A stretch of 64,000 nucleotides of DNA from Amycolatopsis sp. DSM 110486 (lineage in GTDB: Bacteria > Actinomycetota > Actinomycetes > Mycobacteriales > Pseudonocardiaceae), in assembly GCF_019468465.1 (NCBI RefSeq), contig NZ_CP080519.1, positions 4,603,001 through 4,667,000 of the forward strand, read 5' to 3'. Numbering within the stretch: the first letter of the stretch is position 1; every line of letters begins with the position of its first letter. The notes under the pieces were generated by a model. It made no database searches. It saw only the letters and a program-made list of their open reading frames with translations, and was not told the origin of the DNA. A program made the translations under genes and the position numbers. This document shows positions 8,958-10,026 of this stretch, piece after piece.

Positions 8958-9020
8958 GGGTCCAGTCTGCCCGTTTTTGCGGACCGGCGGATCGGGGAAG
9001 TCCCCGATGTGGCCGGAAGT

Positions 9021-9317
9021 TCATCGGCCGAGGCGGCCGCGGCCCAGGTTGAGCAGCGCCATCGCGAGCTGGCGGCCTTCCGGACCCAGCTCGCGGTAGC
9101 GCGCGAGCACGTCCATCTCGCGGTTGTAGACGATCCTCGTGCCGCCGGCGGCCATGCGGGCCGCGCCGATCGTCTGCGACACCTCCACGCGACGTTTGAC
9201 CAGCCGCAGGATTTCGGCGTCGAGCCAGTCGATCTCCTTGCGCAGCGAGGAGATGTCCTCGCCGGCGGCGGTGTTCTCGGCGGGCTGTCCGTCGGCGTTC
9301 TGAGTCTGCGCGTTCAT
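9021..9317 (-). CDS. aroQ: Chorismate mutase, AroQ type (intracellular)
   Basis: Converts chorismate to prephenate, the branch step to phenylalanine and tyrosine. The 98-residue, all-helical product matches the short actinobacterial AroQ form: EDISSLRKEIDWLDAEILRLVKRRVEVSQTIGAARMAAGG with conserved Arg (LRKEID), Lys (LVKRR) and a C-terminal GR-GRLGR tail. In M. tuberculosis the equivalent enzyme (Rv0948c, from memory) is activated by binding DAHP synthase; the C-terminal residues involved there seem present here. There is no signal peptide, so it is cytoplasmic. It is divergent from pcrA with one DUF1707 gene between, the same neighbourhood as in mycobacteria. Its 5' region carries a leader peptide and alternative hairpins (separate entries). 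Confidence 0.93.
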   Translation of the reverse strand: MNAQTQNADGQPAENTAAGEDISSLRKEIDWLDAEILRLVKRRVEVSQTIGAARMAAGGTRIVYNREMDVLARYRELGPEGRQLAMALLNLGRGRLGR

Positions 9318-9365
9318 CGGGACCTCTCTGAAGTCCGGACTCCCAGTGGCCCCTGGGACGGCGAA

Positions 9366-9440
9366 AGCCCCGGGTCCGTGGACTCCGGGGCTGCGGGTGA
9401 TGGCGGGTGGGGCACTACGCGATCACGGGAGCCGGAGTCC
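9366..9440 (-). promoter_or_regulatory. Transcription attenuator (antiterminator/terminator) of chorismate mutase
   Basis: On the minus strand the segment GGACTCCGG (9440-9432, inside the end of the leader ORF) is perfectly complementary over 9 bases to CCGGAGTCC (9388-9380). The second segment is also part of the left arm of an 8-bp perfect hairpin, AGCCCCGG (9392-9385) with CCGGGGCT (9373-9366), followed by TTTCG. The two pairings cannot form together. A ribosome held at the Phe-Phe-Tyr codons (9456-9448) would cover the region that otherwise pairs with segment 2, favouring the antiterminator; free passage would favour the terminator. The T run is short, as is common in actinobacteria. Confidence 0.72.
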
Positions 9441-9477
9441 GGGTCCCGTAGAAAAATCGCTCACTACTGTGCCGCAT
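9415..9477 (-). CDS. Leader peptide with Phe-Phe-Tyr, chorismate mutase attenuator
   Basis: A 20-codon ORF reading MRHSSERFFYGTRTPAPVIA, between the DUF1707 gene and chorismate mutase. Codons 8-10 are TTT TTC TAC, i.e. the two end products made from prephenate. TTT is rare in this genome, which would strengthen stalling. There is no Shine-Dalgarno, but the ATG lies only 4 bases after the stop codon of the upstream gene (TGA at 9484-9482), so reinitiation could drive its translation; a CATACT hexamer 6 bases before the ATG alternatively allows a leaderless start. The ORF is followed by mutually exclusive hairpins. Confidence 0.75.
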   Translation of the reverse strand: MRHSSERFFYGTRTPAPVIA

Positions 9478-9481
9478 GCGG

Positions 9482-9916
9482 TCAGTATGGCACAGGAGTT
9501 TCACCGCGCCGCCGGAAACTCCGCACCCGCGCGTGCACCACGAGGGTGACGAACAGCCAGAACAACGGCATCGCCGGCCAGAAGAACCCGACGCCCAGCA
9601 CCGCCCACCGCACGATCAGCAGCACCGCCAGCGCCACGACGATCGCGGCGTGGATCCGCAGCGCCGGGTGCTCGCGCAACGCGGCGCGGGTGAGCGGCCA
9701 GCCGGATCCCGGCCGTCGCGCGACTTCGGGGCGGGGCAGGTCGGTGGTGAGCGCGCCGAGCTCGTCGACGTAGCGCGTCGCGTAGACCGTGCCGAGTCGT
9801 TCCTCCACCTCCTCGAGCGTGAGCCGGCCTTCGGAACCGGCGGACTGGATGGTCGTGGCGACGCGTTCTCGGTCGCTGTCGGATGCCCTCAACCGGGCGG
9901 GGATCTTGTCGTCCAT
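9482..9916 (-). CDS. DUF1707 (SHOCT-like) domain membrane protein
   Basis: From ATG 9916 the product has 144 residues. Residues 4-60 match the DUF1707 pattern: ARLRASDSDRERVATTIQSAGSEGRLTLEEVEERLGTVYATRYVDELGALTTDLP. Two hydrophobic helices follow (AAIVVALAVLLIVRWAVLGVGFFW and AMPLFWLFVTLVVHA). The function of the domain is unknown; it is frequent at the N-terminus of actinobacterial membrane proteins. The frame extends to 9970 but the domain normally starts within a few residues of the methionine, and GGAG precedes 9916. It is divergent from pcrA and directly upstream of the chorismate mutase leader, so the two probably share a transcript. Confidence 0.85.
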   Translation of the reverse strand: MDDKIPARLRASDSDRERVATTIQSAGSEGRLTLEEVEERLGTVYATRYVDELGALTTDLPRPEVARRPGSGWPLTRAALREHPALRIHAAIVVALAVLLIVRWAVLGVGFFWPAMPLFWLFVTLVVHARVRSFRRRGETPVPY

Positions 9917-10026
9917 ACCGTTCGATGCTCCGCGCGCGAACGCCCCGGCGCGTCGGACGGGAGGCGACACCGCGGCGTACGTCGACAGGCGCAGTTGCCT
10001 CTGACGAACCTGTCGTACCCCAGGGG

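Follow-up and report, generated by a model that had tools for sequence, protein, structure and literature searches.

A predicted Phe/Tyr leader-peptide attenuator in front of the stand-alone chorismate mutase gene of Amycolatopsis and its relatives

The closest described precedent is the aroR-aroF system of Corynebacterium glutamicum, in which a Phe-Tyr-Phe leader stands before aroF, the gene of a DAHP synthase (Neshat 2014, as presented in PMC11802643 and PMC4046766). According to the account in PMC11802643, Phe limitation acts on this system, while Tyr availability is without effect. The C. glutamicum genes under attenuation control, the aro genes included, are described as responding to starvation as well. 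The system is like the locus presented here in that an actinobacterial leader with aromatic codons, attenuation upon Phe limitation and a downstream enzyme of the aromatic pathway come together, and it is unlike it in that the target is DAHP synthase and not chorismate mutase (CM); the likeness is drawn from published descriptions of aroR.

In E. coli, the pheA product fuses CM with prephenate dehydratase, and the pheA leader carries a ribosome-binding site. The pheL-pheA system, as outlined in PMC11802643, shares with our locus the Phe leader, the control by charged tRNA and the CM activity downstream. The two differ in that the enzyme here is a stand-alone AroQ-type CM, behind a leader that is probably leaderless and includes a Tyr codon as well. 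In Streptomyces lividans, trpL1 and other leaders are similar in their leaderless leader peptides, downstream hairpins and amino-acid attenuation, and none of the eight leaders tabled in that paper (Ala, Ile, Thr, two Trp, two Leu, Met) stands in front of a chorismate mutase (PMC8079986). The ilvB1 attenuator of Mycobacterium tuberculosis, which is backed by experiment, likewise has an upstream ORF with regulatory codons and a terminator/antiterminator pair, but its codons and its target belong to the branched-chain amino acids; the words “chorismate” and “aroQ” are absent from the main text of that paper, two extended-data figures of which show further loci (PMC13236596).

Candidate structures for Trp, Cys and Leu genes as well as ileS T-boxes were given by Seliverstov 2005, with none conserved before other amino-acid pathways in the available text (PMC1262725). 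In the accessible text on Rv0948c, “leaderless” refers to plasmid-encoded fusion enzymes, and neither “leader peptide” nor “attenuat” is found (PMC10520331). A literature search, mostly at listing level, gave no leader recognised before an actinobacterial chorismate mutase. As far as searched, the attenuator design is a known, classical one, while the CM target is unreported and its spread is wide. To our knowledge, the stand-alone AroQ chorismate mutase has been discussed mainly via protein-level feedback.

Leader, RNA elements and genes in the window

The window is the whole analysed stretch of 64,000 nucleotides from Amycolatopsis sp. DSM 110486. The element on its minus strand in front of the CM gene is very probably a ribosome-mediated transcription attenuator of that gene. 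A Phe/Tyr leader attenuator had been proposed at this place by the initial annotation, and comparison among genomes now supports it through conserved aromatic stall codons, through covarying and mutually exclusive protector, antiterminator and terminator helices, and through the CM found behind every inspected locus of the order that matched our covariance model R1. The parts are listed below.

9477-9415, minus strand: leader ORF of 20 codons, MRHSSERFFYGTRTPAPVIA, with ATG at 9477 and TAG at 9417-9415; probably leaderless
9456-9448, minus strand: stall codons TTT-TTC-TAC (Phe-Phe-Tyr), leader codons 8-10
9449-9425, minus strand: protector hairpin 1:2, ACGGGACCCGG-ACT-CCGGCTCCCGT, inside the leader ORF
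9440-9432, minus strand: region 2, GGACTCCGG, exact complement of region 3
9388-9380, minus strand: region 3, CCGGAGTCC, common to antiterminator 2:3 and terminator 3:4
9392-9366, minus strand: terminator-like hairpin 3:4, AGCCCCGGAGTCC/GGACCCGGGGCT, then UU; region 3 lies in its left arm
9426-9397, minus strand: small helix GTGAT (9426-9422) / ATCAC (9401-9397), which would sit within the antiterminator loop; modest support
9494-9484, minus strand: extended -10-like promoter element TGTGCCATACT, overlapping the DUF1707 stop codon; predicted transcription start at or next to the leader ATG
9317-9021, minus strand: AroQ-type chorismate mutase (CM) of 98 aa, the putative regulated gene (Pfam CM_2 PF01817, 40.4 bits, cut-off 27)
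9919-9482, minus strand: DUF1707 gene (PF08044) with its stop at 9484-9482, upstream neighbour outside the device

The 20-codon ORF with consecutive Phe-Phe-Tyr codons and the perfect nine-base pairing with the left arm of a terminator-like hairpin, both pointed out in the initial annotation, were confirmed (9 of 9 bases pair between regions 2 and 3). What that annotation lacked is the strong hairpin of the leader ORF itself, the protector 1:2. The segment 9477-9318 folds with z = -3.31, and none of 200 shuffles is equally stable. The top PDB match of the window CM is the M. tuberculosis CM Rv0948c (E 3.2e-29).

Two further observations concern the stretch between the terminator-like hairpin and the CM gene. 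Within 9344-9320 there is a second GGAGTCC copy, which could also meet region 2, and a hairpin GGACTTC-AGA-GAGGTCC (9336-9320), which covers the GAGAGG before the CM. These letters recur in the close relatives L003-L010.

Conservation and covariation across the order

To describe the element among relatives, we took the best 80 of 161 loci encoding a CM relative, hereafter the named loci. It turned out that 78 of these 80 have the leader motif FYGxRxP in an upstream frame of the CM, and in the two misses (L004 and L023) the element is present with one base changed or deleted. What is conserved among the named loci is the DNA itself, down to third codon positions; variation is mostly confined to the third base of the second Phe codon (TTC in 42, TTT in 36) and to the middle base of one codon. 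In L011 and L047, both named loci, the first stall position of the motif frame is ATT. For L011 this frame has no in-frame start, and the frame of its GTG keeps Phe-Phe. In 79 of the 80 named loci (L003-L082), as in the window, the 2 kb upstream of the CM include a UvrD/PcrA-like gene on the opposite strand. One of them, JOAA01000048.1 (L029), is titled Rhodococcus rhodnii and carries a Kibdelosporangium-like locus, and the record is probably mislabelled.

The covariance model R1, built from 50 rows, matched in 220 of 298 genomes of the order (E <= 0.01). In all 47 family genomes with both places listed, the match lies 38-119 nt (median 62) upstream of the CM on the same strand. We inspected 40 loci of the order chosen from the R1 matches, and both the leader and a downstream CM are present in 40 of 40 (a search with the window CM found it in 38, and searches with other CM proteins found it in L152 and L163). 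Besides, 16 genomes of the order were picked for having no R1 match; 15 of them gave a CM match. On inspection by eye, 5 of these 15 show such a leader (L246, L249, L250, L252, L253) and 10 show none. The most frequent leader length is 20 aa (74 of 133 CM leaders). The CM of L162 (family f8, g53) has 71 residues in common with Rv0948c over 87 aligned, from which its genome is taken to be a Mycobacterium. The element would then serve relatives of Amycolatopsis and also a genus whose CM closely matches Rv0948c of M. tuberculosis.

Scans of the own genome with R1 and with a further model, R2, gave no strong second copy of the element. The next-best matches, of 20.6 and 22.2 bits, are the antisense of the same hairpin, and the weak places L115 and L191-L196 were viewed as open frames only. 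These scans also covered a second chorismate mutase domain of this genome (G000:C1:4478619-4478822), which lies in a 219-codon open frame.

For the pairing analysis, 49 rows were aligned order-wide (the window, 8 named loci and the 40 inspected loci of the order). The 50 close rows alone offer almost no variation for such a test (covariation term 0.06). Three mutually exclusive helices, 1:2, 2:3 and 3:4, were found, of which 2:3 is weaker in families f4, f5 and f12. For helices 1:2 and 3:4 together, 88.0% of the cells are paired, and there are 71 double-change cells against 24.8 in shuffled alignments (reached by 0 of 500 shuffles, which do not remove relatedness). Taken alone, 1:2 has 90.0% of its cells paired with both-side changes at 4 of 11 pairs, and 3:4 has 86.0% with both-side changes at 5 of 11. 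For 2:3, 90.6% of the cells are paired, with 26 double-change cells against 7.4 shuffled (0 of 500, relatedness again not removed). Counting covarying pairs instead of cells weakens the signal: 9 against 7.0 for 1:2 and 3:4 (reached by 41 of 500 shuffles), and 5 against 2.9 for 2:3 (reached by 15 of 500).

When region 3 was swapped for that of other families, the native 2:3 duplex proved the stronger one in 44 of 49 rows, but in only 20 of the 25 rows outside the family, and families f12 and f4 show no average gain over this swapped control. One base bulges from the terminator stem. It is A within the family and C in two of the three f8 rows, and its pairing partner lies in region 2, not in region 4. 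The small helix has 91.8% of its cells paired and an A-U to G-C change at one pair in 13 rows. It reaches at least 5 bp in 36 of the 49 rows, with a mean of 5.18 compared with 4.19 in shuffles; its covarying pairs and pair types are no better than in shuffles, and the covariation score of a -3 slide is as high. Conservation within the element is concentrated in the stall codons, hairpin 1:2, region 3 and the terminator. In view of this comparison across genomes, a chance origin of the leader-hairpin arrangement is very unlikely.

All 49 rows have Phe as the first stall codon, and 43 have an aromatic codon at the second place. At the third, 48 have Tyr and one, L155, has Phe, a change that costs a 1:2 pair but leaves the codon aromatic. 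The first codon stays Phe across a TTT/TTC change, and the second is mostly Phe or Tyr. TTT makes up 47 of the 49 first stall codons against 10 of 391 Phe codons in the long open frames of the window (28 frames with at least 250 codons and GC3 > 0.88). The short ORF carries codons for the amino acids of the pathway that it would regulate. As a test, the initial annotation had named the conservation of the leader ORF, of its Phe/Tyr codons and of compensatory base changes in related genomes; all are present, and the attenuator reading was not refuted.

The near-invariant tail FFYGTRTPAPV within the family could also suggest a nascent-peptide arrest leader of the TnaC kind, in which the peptide together with free Phe/Tyr halts the ribosome and the codons are not simple sensors of tRNA charging. 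This invariance is seen at the DNA level, third positions too, and is explained by the hairpin in the same DNA. Beyond the closest relatives the tail differs (GYRSPVPV, GTGSPAAV, GDRASAAV), and in L023 and L179 frameshifts occur just after FFYG with the RNA largely kept. We consider peptide arrest very unlikely.

Leader start and proposed switch

To figure out where the leader transcript begins, we summarized the spacing between promoter-like boxes and the leader start in 132 loci (the window, the 80 named loci, the 40 inspected loci of the order and 11 of 20 loci outside the order, which fitted the anchor pattern). In 116 of the 132, a [CT]ANNNT box lies 5-8 nt before an in-frame ATG or GTG (6 nt in 81 and 7 nt in 32), against a mean of 5.0 and a maximum of 11 in 200 shuffled rounds. 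The hexamer of the window is CATACT (9489-9484) across the DUF1707 stop, which the generic sigma-70 scan does not call. The leader is probably a leaderless mRNA from its own promoter, with the predicted start at or next to the ATG.

The position of this ATG four bases behind the DUF1707 stop (9484-9482 and 9477) is as the initial annotation gave it; the suggestion drawn from it, a leader fed by reinitiation, is not supported. A DUF1707 gene lies upstream in 43 of the 80 named loci, and all of the 37 without a detected DUF1707-like gene match the leader motif. Together with the spacing of the -10-like box, this leads us to reject reinitiation behind DUF1707 as the general mechanism, and a probably leaderless leader with its own promoter has no need of it. 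The short distance rather suggests a promoter that overlaps the gene's end. The same 37 loci also bear on the notion that the hairpin simply terminates DUF1707 transcription and that the ORF above it is there by chance, for which its place directly after DUF1707 in the window and the 43 loci with that gene upstream can be cited. As the bulged stem base, moreover, has its partner in region 2 rather than in region 4, we find this notion scarcely credible.

Since the RNA of the 1:2 hairpin is very highly conserved, one may also think of a metabolite- or protein-binding RNA switch whose ORF is untranslated. The Phe codons speak against such a switch: they are not part of the helix and remain Phe despite the TTT/TTC change, with the second codon mostly Phe or Tyr. 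So does a start codon kept with its -10-like box at a nearly fixed distance. The codon content of the leaders also tracks the target gene (see below). Rfam (release 15) gave no gathering-score match in 7 loci, which speaks on T-boxes and riboswitches only as far as Rfam has them, and on 9000-10000 of the window only sub-threshold hits to MIR9657 (E 4.8) and Acido-1 (E 1.2), taken as chance. Altogether we regard an RNA switch as highly improbable.

For the attenuator, we infer the leaderless start, the stalling of the ribosome, the termination and the identity of the sensed amino acid, and the following course is proposed. Transcription would begin with the leader ATG or next to it, and initiation on the leaderless RNA would fall to a 70S ribosome. 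With charged tRNA-Phe and tRNA-Tyr, the ribosome would pass codons 8-10 and region 2; region 2 would then be masked or back in 1:2, region 3 would pair with region 4, and transcription would end before the CM. When tRNA-Phe (perhaps tRNA-Tyr) is uncharged, the ribosome would wait on TTT-TTC-TAC and cover the left arm of 1:2, so that the freed region 2 could pair with region 3 before region 4 is made and the polymerase would read into the chorismate mutase gene. In this way the stand-alone AroQ CM of a large order would gain a specific and testable control via charged Phe and Tyr tRNA.

A crude folding model, in which a ribosome footprint of 30 nt (an assumed size) is masked, gave a 2:3 pairing of 0.04 without ribosome at the moment when region 3 is out. 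The value is 0.83 with Phe8 and 0.72 with Phe9 in the A site, only 0.36 with Tyr10, and 0.00 with the ribosome at codons 15 and 17. With the ribosome at the stop codon, 2:3 stays at 0.74, which is against the simple picture and arises from the 14 nt between region 2 and the stop; pairing across a stop-codon ribosome looks sterically unlikely. At equilibrium the finished terminator wins in every ribosome state (0.92 or more), so that the device can only work kinetically, which is also the accepted mode of classical attenuators. The lack of effect of Tyr availability at aroR of C. glutamicum advises caution on Tyr sensing at the CM leader.

Hairpin 3:4 is strong, with a median of -22.6 kcal/mol in the 49-row alignment, and the window copy has three U only (9366-9364); generic terminator and sigma-70 scans of 9250-9600 called no site. 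Runs of TTTT or longer come after 3:4 in several other families. The short U run in the window, together with the local hairpin over the GAGAGG before the CM, would fit an attenuator that hides the ribosome-binding site and acts on translation rather than ending transcription. However, 48 nt separate the end of hairpin 3:4 from the CM start, the ribosome-binding site of the CM lies outside this hairpin, and the longer T runs elsewhere point the other way, too. Translational control is therefore, in our estimate, unlikely.

The DAHP synthase sister element

Beyond the order, model R2 matched in 124 of 394 genomes of the class (E <= 0.01), 32 of them in the own order, and in 29 of 246 genomes of the phylum (E <= 0.001), 17 of them outside the class; many of the weak matches among the uninspected loci may be chance. 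We inspected 40 loci outside the order, mostly better-scoring R2 matches, and found a downstream DAHP synthase in 23, a CM in 9 and neither in 8. The CM loci belong to families f33 (4), f46 (2), f50, f36 and f32 (1 each). Three of the 23 DAHP synthases were checked against Pfam, and all three have DAHP_synth_1 with a ferredoxin-like domain. The matches L209, L211, L231, L232, L233, L235, L237 and L238 look like plain terminators or chance and were set aside.

The codons of the two groups of leaders are different. Of the 24 DAHP-synthase leaders, 19 contain Trp codons; of the 133 CM leaders, 4 do. The Fisher value of 2e-16 for this difference is only indicative since the leaders are related. 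In none of the four Trp-containing CM leaders is Trp among the stall codons. For this count L011 was left out (no start) and L239 was not entered, and the leaders outside the order, as well as those from order genomes without an R1 match, were picked by eye. The leader codons fit the products of each enzyme, because CM serves Phe and Tyr only, while DAHP synthase serves all three aromatic amino acids. The contrast is a natural experiment on how leader codons follow the products of the controlled gene, and the covariance models could be rebuilt for annotating the element.

We give about even chances to a broader picture, in which the Actinomycetota would share an old pair of leaderless aromatic attenuators, one at CM with Phe/Tyr and hardly any Trp codons, the other at the type I DAHP synthase with Phe, Tyr and mostly Trp codons. 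It would be one RNA design tuned per branch point, and the two together would form the main charged-tRNA feedback of the phylum on aromatic amino acids, mycobacteria with the Rv0948c-type enzyme included.

The own genome has a type II DAHP synthase, upstream of which no leader was seen by eye, and a single DAHP_synth_1 gene (G000:C1:6239921-6240811; L241, reverse complement), which has upstream of it a second aromatic leader, the short ORF VQRYFWFTKPAPGGCGRVNLR. TAGCTT lies 7 nt before the GTG of this leader, and a GAGCCGG...CCGGCTC hairpin follows it. Leaders such as MSRSFGFWFFYGGRRPA and MQRYYWFFGTSGRPGAEAV also stand before DAHP synthase in the distant families f67, f68, f69 and f28 of the phylum (L220-L230, L234, L236).
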